This document shows positions 5,328 through 14,142 of a stretch of DNA of 34,356 bases, piece by piece. The number at the start of each line of letters is the position of its first letter. Position 1 is the first letter of the stretch. This DNA comes from a virus. The notes below the pieces were generated by a model. That model worked only from the letters and a program-made list of their open reading frames with translations, was not told where the DNA came from and made no database searches. Made by a program: the position numbers and the translations under genes. The DNA lies in the IMG/VR virus record IMGVR_UViG_3300034063_000366, positions 1 to 34,356 of that record. One strand, written 5' to 3'.

Positions 5328-6854
5328 CTATGATCCTAGCCAAGAGGTTGAAATACTAGCCTGACCATAAGCCTTGCGCGGCGTCCTGTCAACGCGCTCG
5401 CCTCTGGAGGCCACGGGGAACGCGAATGTAACGGCAATCGCGTCCGCAGCGTCGGGGCTTGCGAGCCCACGGGCTTTCATCTCCTTCTTGCCTTCGAGGT
5501 AGATCGTGCCCTTGCTGTCCGGCTTCATCAGCGGCGAAATCAGGTCCGTCTTCAGCACCCGGTCGGGCGGGATCGACGCGCTTTTCAGCCATTCCCGCAT
5601 GGCTCCCCACATCTCGGCCCGCTTGTTGCCGTACATGACCGGCTTGCTGCTCTTAGACCCAAAGTTCACCCCCTTGACCTTGTACCGCTGCTCCTTGAGC
5701 CGGTCCACGACGCCTGCGCCTAGGCCCCCCTCGTCGATCACGACCATCGTCGGCTGGAACTCCTCCATGGCCTCGATGACGCGGCCTACGACTTCCATGG
5801 TGTCGTCACCACGGTATCGGCGGATTGCCACGATGTCCCGGCCTTGCCGTACCGCGATAACCGTAGCGTCGGCACCGAAGCGTGCCGGGTCCACGCCGAG
5901 GACGACAGGAGCCGAGGCGTCCTTATAGCGGGGTCGTTCCATGGCGTCGTCGACGAGATGGATGGGGATGAACTGGTCATCTCCAGCCGAGGGAAACTCA
6001 CCGTAGACTTCAACATGCGCCTGAGCGCTGTCAGGCCCGTATTCCTGGATGATTTGCTCATAGACCGCCTTGTCCGTTCCTTCGACCGTGCGGGCGTCCA
6101 CGGTCTTGTTGCGCCAGAAGTCCCGCTTGGCGTTGAACGCCTCGTAGAAGTAGCCCGTGTTGCGGCGGGGGTTGGAGAACGCCATCCAGAAGCGGTGCGG
6201 CGTGTTCTCGGTGAAAAAGCCCGCCGCGACCTGCCAGATGGCGTCGGCGATGCCCGAGGCTTCGTCGAAGATCAGCAGCACGCCGTCGAAGTTGTGGACG
6301 CCCGCGTAGGCGTCCGGGTTTTCTTCCGACCACAGCCGGCCCTCAACGCCCCAGTAGCGCGTGCCCTTCTTCAGGTCGCGCTCGACCAGTTCCGCAATCC
6401 ACTTGGCGGGCATGACGCGGGTGGCCGAGACCTCGAACCAATGGCTGTTCAGGGCCAGTGCCATCCACTTGGTGATTTCGGCCCAGGTGATGGAGCGCAA
6501 CTGCGTCTCGGAGTTGGCCGACACGATGGTCGTGGACCCAATGCGGGTGGTCAGCATCCAGATGACGAGCCATGAGACAAGGGCCGACTTGCCGATGCCG
6601 CGGCCGGAGGAGACGGCCATGCGGAACACGTCGAAGTCCACCTTGCCGCCGTTCTGCTTGATGTGCGCCGTCAGATCCTGCAGCACCTCGCGCTGCCACC
6701 GGCGCGGACCGGAGAAGTGCTCCAGCGGCGTGCCGGGCTGGCCCCACGGAAACAGGTAGAGCACGAACTTGTACGGGTCGTCCTTGAGGCTGGGCGACCA
6801 CAGGGTCGCCATCAGCGTCTGCTCGTCGTCAGCGCTGTAAATCGGGGTCTGCAT
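5328..6854 (-). CDS. terL: terminase large subunit
   Basis: 508 aa from ATG 6854. Earlier frame residues overlap the small terminase and are not protein-like. It is the packaging motor: an N-terminal ATPase that translocates DNA through the portal and a C-terminal RNase H-like nuclease that cuts genome ends. Walker A is SGRGIGKS near residues 83-90. Walker B with its catalytic Glu is LLIFDE near 193-198. The nuclease acidic residues lie in GVDPARFGAD (about 321), VVIDEGG (about 373) and SPDAADA (about 467). Length is normal for phage terminases. It overlaps terS by 26 bases. Confidence 0.95.
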   Translation of the reverse strand: MQTPIYSADDEQTLMATLWSPSLKDDPYKFVLYLFPWGQPGTPLEHFSGPRRWQREVLQDLTAHIKQNGGKVDFDVFRMAVSSGRGIGKSALVSWLVIWMLTTRIGSTTIVSANSETQLRSITWAEITKWMALALNSHWFEVSATRVMPAKWIAELVERDLKKGTRYWGVEGRLWSEENPDAYAGVHNFDGVLLIFDEASGIADAIWQVAAGFFTENTPHRFWMAFSNPRRNTGYFYEAFNAKRDFWRNKTVDARTVEGTDKAVYEQIIQEYGPDSAQAHVEVYGEFPSAGDDQFIPIHLVDDAMERPRYKDASAPVVLGVDPARFGADATVIAVRQGRDIVAIRRYRGDDTMEVVGRVIEAMEEFQPTMVVIDEGGLGAGVVDRLKEQRYKVKGVNFGSKSSKPVMYGNKRAEMWGAMREWLKSASIPPDRVLKTDLISPLMKPDSKGTIYLEGKKEMKARGLASPDAADAIAVTFAFPVASRGERVDRTPRKAYGQASISTSWLGS

Positions 6855-7254
6855 GTATTTCCGTGGCGGCCAGTTCAATGACGCGGTGCTGCGCCTGCTC
6901 CAGCGCGGCCGTGATGCTGATCTTCTGGTCCACCGTGACCTCGATGGCCTGCTTGGCCGCCCAGCCGTGGGCGTAACGCAAGACCTCAAGCGCCGCCTTG
7001 CTGTCGCCCGCCCGCGCGGCGTCGTGCAGGACGGTGGCCATCTCGTGCTCGCCGTCGGCGCGGCCTTTCTGCTCGGCATACTCCGCGATGGGGTCCATCT
7101 GGCAGAGCCTGCGGTATTCGGTCGGCGTCATGCCTGCGGCGAGGGCGAGGGTGTCGCCCTTCAGCCCCAGCTTGGCCGCCGCATAGATGGCCTCCAGACG
7201 CGCTTCGGTGGCAGTCAGCGGACGCGGGTCGTATGGGAGCGAGTGGAAGGTCAC
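6829..7254 (-). CDS. terminase small subunit (putative)
   Basis: 141 aa, helical, directly upstream of terL with a short overlap, the standard place for the small terminase that recognises the packaging site and loads the large subunit. The N-terminal half (TATEARLEAIYAAAKLGLKG, then LALAAGMTPTEYRRL) reads as a helix-turn-helix DNA-binding segment. The remainder (HEMATVLHDAARAGDSKAAL) is helical and suits oligomerisation. The assignment rests on size, helix-turn-helix pattern and synteny rather than on a diagnostic motif. Confidence 0.8.
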   Translation of the reverse strand: MTFHSLPYDPRPLTATEARLEAIYAAAKLGLKGDTLALAAGMTPTEYRRLCQMDPIAEYAEQKGRADGEHEMATVLHDAARAGDSKAALEVLRYAHGWAAKQAIEVTVDQKISITAALEQAQHRVIELAATEIHADPDLQR

Positions 7255-7686: not shown

Positions 7687-7760
7687 GCAGCAAAATGCTG
7701 CACTGCACCAATCTGCTAGCATGGTAGCAGGCTAGTTTAGCTAGCATGCTAACATGTTAG
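7687..7760. repeat. cluster of overlapping palindromes
   Basis: Four dyads in 74 bases: GCAGC-AAAAT-GCTGC (7687-7701), CTGCTA-GCATGG-TAGCAG (7713-7730), TAGCATGCTA (7742-7751) and CTAACATGTTAG (7749-7760), the last two overlapping. The TAGCA word recurs in several. They lie between the packaging operon and the 15-bp repeat array in non-coding DNA. This could be an operator cluster or part of the origin region. No ORF crossing it looks protein-like. Confidence 0.6.
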
Positions 7761-7819
7761 TTGCTGGCATCGATGCCTGGCGGCTGTGTGCTCTTGGACC
7801 TTTTGACCTAGCGTCAAGC

Positions 7820-7837
7820 ATGGGCACTATGGGCAAC
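7820..7837. repeat. outlying pair of ATGGGCA 9-mers
   Basis: Two abutting 9-mers, ATGGGCACT and ATGGGCAAC, close to the 9-mer ATGGGYAAT found as pairs at 8103-8120, 8198-8215 and 8250-8270. They have the same orientation as the 8103 pair and lie about 280 bases to its left, before the 15-bp array. Confidence 0.5.
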
Positions 7838-7875
7838 GCCTGGAAGCGCCAGCTATCGGCGCCGGCGTGGTGCGG

Positions 7876-8025
7876 CAGCTGTCGATTGAGCGGCTGTCGA
7901 TCGAGCGGCTGTCGATCGAGCGGCTGTCGATCGAGCGGCTGTCGATCGAGCGGCTGTCGATCGAGCGGCTGTCGATCGAGCGGCTGTCGATCGAGCGGCT
8001 GTCGATCGAGCGGCTGTCGATCGAG
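7876..8025. repeat. 15-bp tandem repeat array, 10 units
   Basis: Ten head-to-tail copies of CGGCTGTCGATCGAG. The first (7876-7890) differs at two positions and the other nine are identical. Each unit contains the 8-bp palindrome TCGATCGA. The 15-bp period keeps several frames open and encodes meaningless pentapeptide repeats on both strands, so it is not treated as coding. There are no spacers, so it is not CRISPR. Perfect identity implies recent expansion or active homogenisation. Next to the DnaA-box region it resembles an iteron array or a protein-binding centromere-like element. Its function is unproven. Confidence 0.9.
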
Positions 8026-8026
8026 C

Positions 8027-8066
8027 GGGGTAGCGTTTGGGGTATTCTTGGGGCATGTTTGGGGTA
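8027..8066 (+). repeat. phased GGGGYA boxes
   Basis: GGGGTA at 8027, GGGGTA at 8039, GGGGCA at 8050 and GGGGTA at 8061 are spaced 12, 11 and 11 bases, about one helical turn, so they face the same side of the DNA. Two copies in inverted orientation (TGCCCC 8275-8280, TACCCC 8287-8292) lie on the far side of the DnaA-box palindrome. The arrangement suggests a protein binding repeatedly along one face. Confidence 0.6.
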
Positions 8067-8078
8067 GTCCAAAAAGCT

Positions 8079-8089
8079 CAGAAAACCAA
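8079..8089 (+). repeat. 11-bp direct repeat, left copy
   Basis: TCAGAAAACCA occurs here and again at 8189-8199, exactly 110 bases apart and bracketing the 9-mer and DnaA-box core of the presumed origin. Confidence 0.5.
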
Positions 8090-8102
8090 TAACGACGCGG
8101 TG

Positions 8103-8270
8103 ATGGGTAATATGGGCAATCGCAAAACGCTATGCTTATAGACTACAGTTATTCACAATCTGTGAAGATATTACAGACTTTGGACTATCAGAAAACCATT
8201 ACCCATATTACCCATATGCCGATGGCATAAGGCTTTTGCCGCTCTTACGATTGCCCATGTCATTACCCAA
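8103..8270. repeat. paired 9-mer iterons (ATTRCCCAT)
   Basis: Six 9-mers in three pairs: ATGGGTAAT and ATGGGCAAT abutting at 8103-8120, ATTACCCAT twice abutting at 8198-8215, and ATTGCCCAT with ATTACCCAA at 8250-8258 and 8262-8270. The first pair is inverted relative to the other two. The inner pairs (8103-8120 and 8198-8215) form an interrupted dyad with 17 of 18 bases matching, whose centre is base 8159. Regular paired short repeats around an AT-rich core are typical of initiator or repressor binding sites. Confidence 0.7.
8149..8169. promoter_or_regulatory. DnaA box with inverted partner
   Basis: TTATTCACA (8149-8157) matches the DnaA box consensus TTATNCACA exactly. On the other strand ATCTTCACA (8169-8161) is a weaker box with two mismatches. 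Together they make the perfect inverted repeat TTCACA-ATC-TGTGAA (8152-8166), centred on base 8159 within the most AT-rich part of the intergenic region. This is the core of the candidate origin. Confidence 0.6.
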
Positions 8271-8298
8271 GCAATGCCCCAACGACTACCCCAAAACA

Positions 8299-8324
8299 AA
8301 ACGCGCGGCAATTGCCGCGCGTTT
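8299..8324 (-). terminator. bidirectional-type terminator hairpin
   Basis: A 26-base perfect palindrome with arms AAACGCGCGGCAA and its complement. Read on the minus strand it is followed by TGTTTTGGGG, giving a T-rich tail of TTTTGTTTT, so it can terminate the leftward gene at 8367-8609. Read rightward it is followed by GCTTTC, a weaker tail. It separates that gene from the origin-like region. Confidence 0.7.
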
Positions 8325-8329
8325 GCTTT

Positions 8330-8366: not shown

Positions 8367-8609
8367 TCAAGCGCGCTCAATCGCCTTGAAACGATAGTTC
8401 GGTCCGTACACAATCCGCCATTCGTTTCCGCCGGCGGTCCAAACGCGGATGACGTCGCCGCGCGACTTCTTTGCCTCGACCGGCGTCGACGTGCCGCGTT
8501 TGGCAAATTCGGCGCCGGCCATATAGGCAAGCCAGGCGTCACTGGACCACAGATAAGGATTGTCAATTTCGGTTCCGTTGTAGCCTTCCAAAAATTCTGC
8601 GGTAAGCAT
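8367..8609 (-). CDS. small protein with Rmf/CrpP-like signature
   Basis: 80 aa from ATG 8609, preceded by AAGGAAACAG, the same ribosome binding style as the early rightward genes. The segment GYNGTEIDNPYLWSSDAWLA, followed by YMAGAEFA, resembles the Rmf/CrpP fold (G...G....NPY/CPY......W..G), which includes ribosome modulation factor and related phage proteins. The C-terminal half (GDVIRVWTAGGNEWRIVYGP) looks like a small beta hairpin not found in Rmf. It is transcribed alone and leftward, and ends at the terminator 8299-8324. It shares the divergent control region with the early operon. The family assignment is tentative. Confidence 0.65.
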   Translation of the reverse strand: MLTAEFLEGYNGTEIDNPYLWSSDAWLAYMAGAEFAKRGTSTPVEAKKSRGDVIRVWTAGGNEWRIVYGPNYRFKAIERA

Positions 8610-11099: not shown

Positions 11100-11305
11100 C
11101 CCCCAACCGCGCCTATTGGGCGGCCCATTGCGCCGCATTCAGTGACGGGCACCTGCTCCGCTTCCTGACCGCCACCGAACGCCTGCAGGACCGCTACGCG
11201 GTCGCGCAACAGGTCGCGGAAGCGGAAGCCCGCCGCCGCAACCTCATCAAAGAAAAGGCCCCCGTCACCGGGGGCCAGTCAACTCAGGGGAGGAAACAGC
11301 CTTGA
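11096..11305 (+). CDS. small early protein (69 aa)
   Basis: Assigned from TTG 11096, which overlaps the upstream TGA (TTGA); an earlier ATG at 11045 lies inside the previous gene. The 69-aa product starts MTPNRAYWAAHCAAFSDGHL and carries a basic helix (VAQQVAEAEARRRNLIKEKA), ending with a polar tail. Its last 17 codons contain leader hairpin 4 and the ribosome binding site of the DnaA-like gene, so the two are probably regulated together. Function unknown. Confidence 0.6.
   Translation: MTPNRAYWAAHCAAFSDGHLLRFLTATERLQDRYAVAQQVAEAEARRRNLIKEKAPVTGGQSTQGRKQP
11257..11276 (+). other. GC-rich leader hairpin 4
   Basis: GGCCCCCG-TCAC-CGGGGGCC, a perfect 8-bp stem with a 4-base loop, inside the end of the preceding gene and 17 bases before GGGGAGGAAACAGC and the TTG start at 11302. 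It has the same hairpin-then-RBS order as hairpins 1 to 3. Confidence 0.55.
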
Positions 11306-11769
11306 CCTATCACGAGCCGGCCATTGACGCAACAGAGATTGAACAGCGCCTGTGCGCGTACCTGGACGAGCTGGTCCGGCTCGCCGGCGGCCCGCTGACC
11401 GTCTGGCGCGTCGCCCGCGTCGCAATGGAACGCCTGCGGCACGCCGCCGCCGCGCCGCTCGACGAGCCGGTGACACTGCCGACCCTCCGGCCCGAGGCGG
11501 TGCTGACGGCCGTCGCCGAGGCCCATGGCCTGACGGTGGACGACCTGCGCGGCCCGTCACGCGGGCGCAGGATCAGCGCCGCCCGCCACCATGCGGCATG
11601 GGAACTGCGCCAGCGGCGGCCCGACCTGCCGCTGGTCAAGATCGGCGCGCAATTGAACCGATGCGACCACGTTACCATCATCAACAGCCTGCGGCGGTTT
11701 CAGATGTTCATCATCACGGGCCAATACGCGACAGAGCGCGCCCAAGTGGAGCGCGCCCTGTCATGCTGA
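11302..11769 (+). CDS. DnaA domain IV-like DNA-binding protein
   Basis: 155 aa from TTG 11302 behind GGGGAGGAAACAGC. Residues about 65-135 match the C-terminal DNA-binding domain of DnaA. They comprise AVAEAHGLTVDDLRGPSRGR, a basic loop and helix (RRISAARHHAAWELRQ), then LVKIGAQLNRCDHVTIINSL, equivalent to the DnaA signature (GGRDHTTVLHA). There is no AAA+ ATPase domain. By eye, D122, H123 and T125 match E. coli D433, H434 and T436, while T435 is Val and R399 falls on Ala, so base recognition may differ. The N-terminal 60 residues are unrelated helices. It could act at the origin-like repeats or compete with host DnaA. Confidence 0.8.
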   Translation: MTYHEPAIDATEIEQRLCAYLDELVRLAGGPLTVWRVARVAMERLRHAAAAPLDEPVTLPTLRPEAVLTAVAEAHGLTVDDLRGPSRGRRISAARHHAAWELRQRRPDLPLVKIGAQLNRCDHVTIINSLRRFQMFIITGQYATERAQVERALSC

Positions 11770-11822
11770 TCCTGATCGCTGTTCTGCTGGCGGCCCTTGT
11801 GGCTGCCTGGCTCGACCTCTAG
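11763..11822 (+). CDS. possible 19-aa membrane micropeptide
   Basis: ATG 11763 within the end of the DnaA-like gene to TAG 11822, encoding MLILIAVLLAALVAAWLDL, almost pure hydrophobic helix. The stop lies in CTAG, which on the other strand is also the stop of the primase-helicase gene. There is no clear ribosome binding site, so the evidence is only the membrane-helix composition and end-on arrangement. Confidence 0.3.
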   Translation: MLILIAVLLAALVAAWLDL

Positions 11823-14125
11823 CCCTTGACTACCGTCAACCCCGGACCTGCGGCGTGCTCGACCATGCGCCGCAGGTCGCTTTTCGAGTAGGTGCGTGTC
11901 ATGTCCTCGCGTGCCCAGATGTTCTTTTTCGTCTGGAACTCGGCCGATTTGACCGCGCCCAGGTCGATCCAGCCGGCCTCTTTCAAACCATGCAGGAACG
12001 CCGCCTGCGGGATCTTGACGCCGCCGGGCGCACCCTGCTGCAGTTGGTTGCACAGCCGATAGAACGGCGATGCAATGACGCCGGCGGCAAATTCAGGTGA
12101 TGGGCGCAGCACCTGCTCAATCACATAACTTTCGGCCATGCTGCGGCCCGTCTCGATCAGGCGCGTGCGGTAGTCCGTCCAAGGCGGCATCGCCTTGGGA
12201 TTGAACGCGGACACGTTGCGCATCTTCAGCCACCGCGCGACCGCCACCAGCCCGCCGCCCTTGTACCAGTCCCAGAGCGCCGCGGCATCGGCCTTATCCA
12301 TGCGCGGCGCATAGGACCAGATGCAGAACCAGCGCCGGTCCTGGCTGGGCAGCGTCAGCGGCACCGGGTCGTTGGTGAACGCGAGCACGAACAGGCGATT
12401 GACCATGTCATACGGATGCAGGCCCTTCCGCTCGATGGTCAGCGTGTCCGGCGGCGCGGCGATGATCGGCTTCAGATGATTGGACAGCGCGCGGCGCTCG
12501 CCGGCGTCCGGCTCCTTCAGTTCATTCAGGATCAGGATCTCGCTCTCCAGCGCGTAGCCCCAGCGCGAATTGATCCCCTTGGCGTCCACCAGCCCCCGGT
12601 TTCGCAGGTTCGGCCCGCACACGGACCAGATGAACGGGAACCAGAGCGTGTCCTTGCCGCAGTCCTCATCGCCGCCGTGCAGGACCGCATGATTGATCTT
12701 CACCTCCGGGTGCTGGAGCTTGTAGGCCATCACGTCGAAAACGTGTTCCCGCTCGACCGGGTCGGGTATCAGCATCTCGGCATGGGCCAGCCACGGTGAA
12801 ATTTCACTGGCCGCAACGCCGGACAGGTCCGGCCGCGCGTCAATCCAGCGGTTGCCGTAGACCTCGCCATCGCGCGCCACTAGCACGCTCTCGCCAGCGG
12901 CGTAGGTCAGACCGCGCAGCACACGCGCCCCGGACGCCTGGCGGTTCTCATCGTAGCAGGTCGCGGCCTCGATCTTGCGCTGGTTGTGGATCGACTTGCA
13001 GTCGATGTGCCGGAACACAGCATTGAACGCGCCGCGCGTCATCTCGCGTCGGTCAATCATGTCGAAGTAGGCGTCATCCTCGACGATGTAGGCGAAACGT
13101 GAATACCATTCGCGTTTGGTCAGGCGGCCCAGTTCCTTGCGGTCCACCTCGGCCACGACCTCGGCGGCGGTGTCGGGGAACGCCTCGGTCGGCTGGATCG
13201 CCGCCGCGACCTTGGCCATGCGCTCGGCCACCAGTTCCTCGCGGAAGCCCGCCTGCACCGTCGGCCCACCCTGCTCGGCCACCCACGCGAGGAAGGCGTT
13301 GCTGTCGAGGTGCTCGCAGTGGGCGTGATAGCAGCAGAACGCCCGGTTGACGGGCGAGTAACGGCCCTCGATCTGGCCGTCCGTATGTTCGTGATTGTTC
13401 GGGCAGACAACGCCGCACCAGCCCTCGCGGTTGACCTGCGAGAGCACCAGCCCTTGGTCGGAGAGCCACTTGAGCACGCTGTCGGACCCGGTGTCGCGCA
13501 GGCGGATGACCTGCGGCCCGGCGCTGTCGGCGGGTGCTGGCGTGACGCCCAGGCCCTCGCAGATCTGCGGCAGCGTGTACTCGCGGTCGGGGTGGAACTC
13601 GACCAGACGGGCCTCGAACCCGTCCCGCCCCGGCTTCATGTTCGGGCTGCCCGGCAGGCGGCAGTTCCTAACGGCATTGGTGGCGCCGGGGTCGGTATAG
13701 CCCGCCTCGGCGATGGCCGTGATGGCCGCGACGAACTCGCCCTTGCTCGGCTGCTCCTTGAAGGCATAGCCCCACTGGCAGTTGCCGGGCGACGTCTCGA
13801 CGACCCATGTCGGCGGCACGGGCGGCGTCTTGGACTTCGTGCCGATGTCGTCCAGCATCATGAACAGGACGTACTCGCAGTTGGCCGCACTGGCCGACGG
13901 CTTGCCGTCGGTGAAGCGGTCGATGATGAACGAGCCGGTGTTGATGAACCAGCTTTCGCCATCCTTGCGCTGGCGCGACGGCAGGAAGGCGGGCCATGTG
14001 TACTTCGGCGTACCGTCGCGGTGTGTGGCCTGCACGCCGTCACGCATGACGGCTTTCTGGCGCACGATCAGCGCGGTCTCGCCCTCGGGGGCAAGGCCGG
14101 TCAAGTATTCAAGCAGGTCTGTCAT
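11819..14125 (-). CDS. primase-helicase (RepB-type primase plus SF3-like helicase)
   Basis: 768 aa from ATG 14125, behind GAGGAAACA. The N-terminal third resembles archaeo-eukaryotic RepB/PrimPol-type primases: MMLDDIGTK with D92 and D93, then ETSPGNCQWGY and RLPGSPNMKPG. Residues 237-272 hold a Cys/His cluster (C237, C241, H245, C265, H269, C270) in the PNNHEHTDG...YHAHCEH style of phage primases. The helicase domain has Walker A GGDEDCGKDT (about 484-493) and Walker B ILILNELKE, like the NrS-1 polymerase-type (DUF5906) helicases. It would prime and unwind DNA for the phage polymerase encoded upstream. A single protein for both roles is common in phages. Confidence 0.88.
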   Translation of the reverse strand: MTDLLEYLTGLAPEGETALIVRQKAVMRDGVQATHRDGTPKYTWPAFLPSRQRKDGESWFINTGSFIIDRFTDGKPSASAANCEYVLFMMLDDIGTKSKTPPVPPTWVVETSPGNCQWGYAFKEQPSKGEFVAAITAIAEAGYTDPGATNAVRNCRLPGSPNMKPGRDGFEARLVEFHPDREYTLPQICEGLGVTPAPADSAGPQVIRLRDTGSDSVLKWLSDQGLVLSQVNREGWCGVVCPNNHEHTDGQIEGRYSPVNRAFCCYHAHCEHLDSNAFLAWVAEQGGPTVQAGFREELVAERMAKVAAAIQPTEAFPDTAAEVVAEVDRKELGRLTKREWYSRFAYIVEDDAYFDMIDRREMTRGAFNAVFRHIDCKSIHNQRKIEAATCYDENRQASGARVLRGLTYAAGESVLVARDGEVYGNRWIDARPDLSGVAASEISPWLAHAEMLIPDPVEREHVFDVMAYKLQHPEVKINHAVLHGGDEDCGKDTLWFPFIWSVCGPNLRNRGLVDAKGINSRWGYALESEILILNELKEPDAGERRALSNHLKPIIAAPPDTLTIERKGLHPYDMVNRLFVLAFTNDPVPLTLPSQDRRWFCIWSYAPRMDKADAAALWDWYKGGGLVAVARWLKMRNVSAFNPKAMPPWTDYRTRLIETGRSMAESYVIEQVLRPSPEFAAGVIASPFYRLCNQLQQGAPGGVKIPQAAFLHGLKEAGWIDLGAVKSAEFQTKKNIWAREDMTRTYSKSDLRRMVEHAAGPGLTVVKG

Positions 14126-14142
14126 TGTTTCCTCGGGGGTTT

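Follow-up and report, generated by a model that had tools for sequence, protein, structure and literature searches.

The alpha protein of satellite phage P4 is a fused primase-helicase that initiates replication at iterons. In the origins of PICIs, an AT-rich region, taken as the melting site, always lies between two sets of iterons, and P4 alpha and its cognate ori site are named in the same source (PMC6092414). In SaPI Rep the origin iterons are read by the C-terminal domain, and assembly into two hexamers is assumed for this protein and for Cch2 (PMC7581432). Similarly, the isolated C-terminal domain of SCCmec Cch2 binds the short iterons (AAGTG) of a putative origin (PMC7581432). For their part, the sections of PMC7102993 at hand describe in the NrS-1 primase-polymerase a Tail of novel fold that is needed for hexamer assembly, and they describe no iteron array.

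The window analysed here, a viral record taken at its full length of 34,356 bp, comes from a small freshwater phage of podovirus-like type. Its TerL is akin to those of epsilon15-like phages, and its structural genes include a P22-type portal (phrog_156), the head closure Hc3 and a major head protein. The replication-type genes encode a family A DNA polymerase, an exonuclease, a DNA methyltransferase/helicase pair and a RepB-primase/DUF5906 protein; a DNA-level similarity search against annotated phages gave no match. The array of boxes considered below (Table 1) lies within a ∼730-bp non-coding stretch that separates the terS/terL operon from an 80-aa gene on the minus strand (8367-8609). We estimate at roughly 84% the probability that 8027-8293 is a phage replication origin of the PICI/P4 type, bound by the phage primase-helicase and not by DnaA. 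This reading, drawn from sequence comparison, is supported because the boxes co-vary with a PrimPol/SF3 helicase and because the anatomy matches the PICI plan.

Table 1. Features of the array and of the genes discussed (window coordinates)
Feature	Coordinates	Strand	Remarks
Distal box pair, TGGGCA at 7821 and 7830	7821-7835	+	9-bp step; similar distal pairs in several relatives
15-bp minisatellite (GAGCGGCTGTCGATC-type), 10 units	7875-8024	+	Not conserved
Left outer boxes: GGGGTA 8027-8032, TGGGGTA 8038-8044, TGGGGCA 8049-8055, TGGGGTA 8060-8066	8027-8066	+	Start-to-start distance 11 bp
Left inner pair, 9-mers ATGGGTAAT ATGGGCAAT	8103-8120	+	Inverted partner 8198-8215
AT-rich spacer, putative melting region (DUE)	8121-8197		60-bp windows at most 67% AT; loop 64% AT
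Central dyad TTCACA-ATC-TGTGAA (TTCACAATCTGTGAA)	8152-8166		One DnaA-box-like 9-mer, TTATTCACA, at 8150-8158; not conserved in relatives
Right inner pair, 9-mers ATTACCCAT ATTACCCAT	8198-8215	-	9-bp spacing kept in near relatives
Right outer boxes: 8252-8257, 8264-8269, 8275-8281, 8287-8293	8252-8293	-	11-12 bp steps
Inverted repeat CGCGCGGCAA/TTGCCGCGCG with T-rich flank, probable terminator	8294-8329		Closes the array on the right
Terminase small subunit (TerS)	6829-7254	-	Array in the gap upstream of the terS operon in all relatives examined
Bac_DnaA_C (PF08299) protein	11302-11769	+	Unlikely box reader
PrimPol (RepB-primase-like)/SF3 helicase fusion with C-terminal winged-helix-like domain	11819-14131	-	Proposed initiator
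C-terminal winged-helix-like domain, primase-helicase residues 653-759	11855-12175	-	Predicted model and fold comparison
Codons 728-734 (KSAEFQT), tip of predicted beta-hairpin wing	11930-11950	-	Residues co-varying with box sequence

The array and its polarity are strongly non-random and conserved. As the sequence-only reading had noticed, 8103-8120 and 8198-8215 form an inverted pair with 17 of 18 matches centred on 8159, and GGGGYA boxes lie on both sides in opposite orientation (8027-8066, plus; 8275-8293, minus); the GGGGYA arms 8027-8053 and 8266-8292 are centred on 8159.5. That reading treated the 9-mers and the GGGGYA boxes apart, and it overlooked the minus boxes at 8252-8257 and 8264-8269 and the plus boxes at 7821 and 7830. 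All these elements are versions of one motif, TGGG(G)YA, and their polarity is perfect, every box to the left of the centre being plus and every box to the right minus, that is, pointing inward. Eleven inward boxes were counted in 271 bp, whereas 150 dinucleotide shuffles gave 0.8 on average and never more than 3, and the best 18-nt inverted pair reached 17 matches against a shuffle maximum of 14. Elsewhere in the window, no 270-bp stretch contained more than three boxes.

Relatives were fetched in three ways, by TerL, by the right arm and by the primase. In more than 200 related phage contigs the inward boxes, the AT-rich spacer, the 9-bp inner pair and the 11-12 bp outer steps were kept, upstream of terS. 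The order was kept as well: the plus boxes precede the AT-rich spacer, after which come the inner minus pair with its 9-bp step, an interval of ∼44 bp, the outer minus boxes with steps of 11-12 bp and finally the terminator. The offsets of the right outer boxes (∼57, 69, 80 and 92) were seen again in near relatives, and a hairpin occupies the place of the 8294-8329 repeat in relatives too. Distant relatives showed an equivalent array plan in the gap upstream of terS with other box words, and an AT-rich spacer was present at the corresponding place in relatives with other boxes. Wholly different boxes may occur between phages that share 86-99% identity in TerL, TerS, primase and polymerase. No box class could be assigned to 13 of the 221 arrays.

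Several further observations concern the surroundings of the array. Minisatellites with unrelated units (12 or 15 bp) were found at the corresponding place beside the array in L008, L004 and L015. Palindromic operator-like repeats of the GCTAGCATGCTAAC type lie upstream of the late operon at 7700-7765 of the window, and at that place L004, L011, L036, L051 and L026-L048 carry repeats of the TGAATGAACGTTCAATCA type (TetR-like) or of the GGAATATAGTTCTATGC type. The 80-aa gene lies on the opposite strand in L027, L032, L041, L046 and L048, as if the segment flipped or were re-acquired. In L058, L060, L065 and L071 the replication gene block is inverted with respect to the terminase operon, and the array still adjoins terS. 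Of DnaA, the protein encoded at 11302-11769 has just domain IV (Bac_DnaA_C), in which DHVT stands in place of the recognition motif DHTT; the motif varies among relatives without following box class. An ORF of L172 (13908-14516) resembles a DNA polymerase sliding clamp (DnaN-like), as judged by eye from its translation.

The sequence-only reading had laid weight on a midpoint shared by two dyads. In the window this stands, since TTCACAATCTGTGAA (8152-8166) and the 17/18 pair are both centred on 8159, and in shuffled spacers the chance of a dyad with arms of at least 6 was ∼0.00025 (P) exactly at the centre and ∼0.05 anywhere in the spacer. The shared midpoint is not conserved, however. Dyads with arms of at least 6 were present in 13 of 27 near-relative spacers (window included), more commonly than the ∼5% expected from shuffles of the window spacer with odd gaps, and only 4 of those 13 lay within 1 bp of the middle; the dyad sequences differed among near relatives. 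Loss of the shared centre in most close relatives, which that reading had itself named beforehand as grounds for its refutation, was therefore observed, and it affects the midpoint element only. AT-rich spacers with short dyads of unrelated sequence were seen in the window (8152-8166) and in L007, L019, L084 and L011 (AACTGTTATAACAGTT, TATATTAGCATTTACTAATATA, ACATAAAGACTTCCTTATGT, TTCACAATCTGTGAA), and a spacer dyad containing TTAGCATTTACTAATATA was seen again in L050, though the box class differs.

The same spacers bear on an origin opened by DnaA, with either DnaA of the host or the DnaA_C protein of the phage (11302-11769), both proposed at the outset as binding proteins, acting on the central TTATTCACA/palindrome and on the boxes. 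This explanation draws on the Bac_DnaA_C domain of the phage protein (E = 4e-11), on the single TTATTCACA at the array centre and on one class of relatives with DnaA-box-like words, such as TTATCCACA in L172. However, a DnaA box was found in only 2 of the 27 near-relative spacers (window included), which makes host DnaA an unlikely actor, and the window has one box in place of the conserved DnaA-box array (TTWTNCACA) of a DnaA/oriC-type origin. The phage protein is also an unlikely actor: there was no PF08299 match in 21 of 44 relatives, array-bearing contigs of 38-40 kb among them, gene absence in a contig being weak evidence because the records are mostly fragments. L172, with the most DnaA-box-like boxes, has no PF08299 match, and its class is accounted for by the primase loop KSRE(F/Y)DT. 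The DnaA_C protein was rejected as box reader, since arrays are present in relatives without PF08299 and the recognition helices vary within one box class. Altogether, opening by DnaA is very unlikely.

Box class follows residues 728-734 of the primase-helicase, numbered from the codon ending at 14131 as residue 1, with Met as residue 3. A first comparison of primases in 25-residue bins gave no signal, which appeared only column by column. In a subclade of eight genomes with two box classes, nine primase columns discriminated between the classes, five of them within 728-734, compared with one column in PolA and none in TerS or TerL. When the labels were permuted over the 56 possible splits, one other split yielded five discriminating columns in a 7-residue stretch; that split falls between deep lineages, with 44 columns discriminating overall. 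Among 160 dereplicated genomes, the top four of 770 primase columns were 728, 734, 730 and 733 (0.82, 0.69, 0.64 and 0.64, respectively; next, 0.37; s.d., 0.094), and the best column scores in the other proteins were 0.20 for TerS, 0.30 for PolA, 0.12 for TerL and 0.26 for the exonuclease.

These scores also weigh against a packaging site (pac/cos) whose boxes would be bound by TerS, the product of the adjoining operon. Iteron-like TerS sites occur in other phages, and the array always lies in the gap upstream of terS, even where the replication genes are inverted (L058 and L065). TerS, however, remains nearly unchanged as the boxes swap (91% identity between L172 and L177), none of its columns discriminates between the classes, and its top score over all genomes stays at the 0.20 given above. 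A TerS site was set aside because TerS residues do not track the boxes, and we regard it as hardly probable.

The primase loop also predicted the boxes of further genomes. With box class defined by word counts in a 420-bp stretch, using words picked by the analyst from the first genome set, the loops learned from that set gave the right box in 52 of 53 later-fetched genomes, the test being limited to those whose loop occurred in the first set, whereas the closest relative, judged on the remainder of the primase, gave it in 29 of 53. Loop and relatedness disagreed in 24 cases, and the loop was correct in 23 of them. The ACGTCA and CCTACC classes were added after the second set, so their loops lie outside the 53. 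New loops came with consistent words (NSK(D/E)... with ACGTCA, M(S/A)RDY.. with TAGTCA, and GSKEYSS with CCTACC), and (H/A)SVEY(P/A)T occurred mostly with TGGGTCA. Two exceptions were recorded: L201, which has a borderline box class (TGGGYA 6, TGGACA 5), and the loop ACVDHPT, which is found with TAGGC in three genomes, yet L055 has boxes of the TGGGTCA type. At residue 728, for example, K goes with TGG, G with AGG, N with ACG and M with AGT; at residue 733, D goes with TGGA, and Q or G with TGGG.

Natural pairs locate the switch in the loop. The primases of L172 and L174 are 95% identical and have different boxes, and five of the seven loop residues differ. In contrast, those of L172 and L187 are 83% identical, with one box in common and six of the seven loop residues shared. 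The loop flanks follow ancestry in this comparison: L172 agrees with L174 at 83 of 88 positions in residues 640-727 and 28 of 35 in 735-769, with 2 of 7 in 728-734, and with L187 at 74/88, 26/35 and 6/7, respectively. A linked exchange of the segment from primase to array was therefore rejected, since the switch is confined to the loop and both flanks track ancestry. Selection for a pure hairpin or cruciform, in which the arms would be complementary and their sequence free, was likewise rejected, as the outer boxes repeat one word and box class tracks protein residues. We think it likely that box specificity has switched many times in this phage family and that the seven wing-tip residues read no fewer than eight box types through a partly readable residue-to-base code, so that co-infecting relatives could not fire each other's origins.

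Both PF16793 and DUF5906 were found in the primase-helicase. An AlphaFold2 model (56 sequences) contained PrimPol, helicase and C-terminal domains with a mean pLDDT of 77, and domain placement in this whole-protein model is unreliable because its pTM is 0.38. The C-terminal part modelled alone (95 sequences) reached a mean pLDDT of 86.6. In it, a hairpin is predicted from strands 722-727 and 736-740, after a conserved helix at 709-718; its tip, 728-735, corresponds in the model to the predicted wing of a winged helix. Whole-protein fold matches were the C-terminal region of NrS-1 (Z 22.3 over 333 residues), SaPI5 Pri-Rep (Z 16.8), S-2L PrimPol (Z 15.1) and RepB' (Z 12.4). The NrS-1 primase-polymerase, with its helicase and C-terminal Tail, was thus the best whole-protein structural match among the matches listed. 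The C-terminal domain alone gave weak matches, mostly to winged helices (Foldseek E of 0.067 or more, Z of at most 6.4), and neither P4 alpha nor its origin-binding domain was among the matches listed in the structure searches.

The locus resembles the Pri-Rep-ori modules of PICIs and SaPIs (SaPI5 Pri-Rep, SaPIbov1 Rep and EcCICFT073 of E. coli) in its primase and AAA+ (SF3-like) helicase initiator and in having opposed iteron sets on the two sides of an AT-rich region. Reading of the boxes by the C-terminal domain of the initiator, as in those modules, is proposed here from the strong co-variation. Unlike the PICI origin, which lies immediately 3' of the initiator gene, the array (8027-8293) adjoins terS, ∼3.5 kb from the primase-helicase gene, which ends at 11819, with other genes between. 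It also differs in its 9-bp inner pair and 11-12 bp outer steps and in the many box specificities of one family. PICIs are integrated satellites with int, whereas the window family consists of phages with P22/epsilon15-like structural genes and no detectable tyrosine integrase (PF00589, 0/44 relatives). Because of the origin position and the integrated-satellite features, the locus is not filed as a PICI replicon. The proposed initiator shares its primase-helicase fusion with P4 alpha, and the window has one array where P4 has ori plus crr. Iteron reading by a C-terminal domain, as proposed here, is known for SCCmec Cch2, which differs in having three direct repeats, a separate primase and a staphylococcal element as its carrier.

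The integrase result bears directly on an attP reading, in which the array would hold arm-type and core-type sites for an integrase, as two inverted arms and a variable core might suggest. The search covered tyrosine integrases (PF00589) and was positive in 14 of 14 control genomes; MAGs gave only phage-like contigs, with no integrated copy. On both counts attP was rejected, its probability being practically negligible. A bipartite operator for late or early promoters, acting via the primase-helicase or another regulator and in place of an origin, would fit a gap that is expected to hold late-operon control elements and that has the further palindromic repeats at 7700-7765. Yet the protein that tracks the boxes is a PrimPol/SF3 helicase, and two opposed iteron sets around an AT-rich spacer are the PICI origin plan, so that an operator instead of an origin is most improbable; as a secondary role of the array, it may exist.

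The idea of a designed binding array, and of an origin, is thus supported by the conserved two-arm anatomy around the AT-rich spacer and by the co-variation of boxes and primase-helicase, and the DnaA actors first proposed for it are not. Cumulative GC skew, suggested as a check, gave no support, with no minimum at the array; at 4-fold sites of minus-strand genes, the skew was about equal to the left (-0.019) and right (-0.006) of it. For the proposed origin at 8027-8293, we infer that several copies of the primase-helicase would use the C-terminal wing to bind the inward TGGG(G)YA iterons of either arm. Two ring helicases would thereby be loaded face to face on the AT-rich spacer and would melt it, and the PrimPol domain would then prime both strands. 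As box and wing co-evolve, related phages would come to carry mutually incompatible origins.

The PICI-type plan probably provides the origin of an independent phage family. In the open-access PMC literature, we found no description of natural specificity switching to this extent, tracked by a seven-residue wing. The natural box/wing switches make a change of initiator origin specificity testable with natural protein pairs that are up to 95% identical, and they hint at what the C-terminal Tail may do in primase-polymerases of the NrS-1 kind. Reading seven residues would, moreover, allow origins to be located in metagenomic phages.
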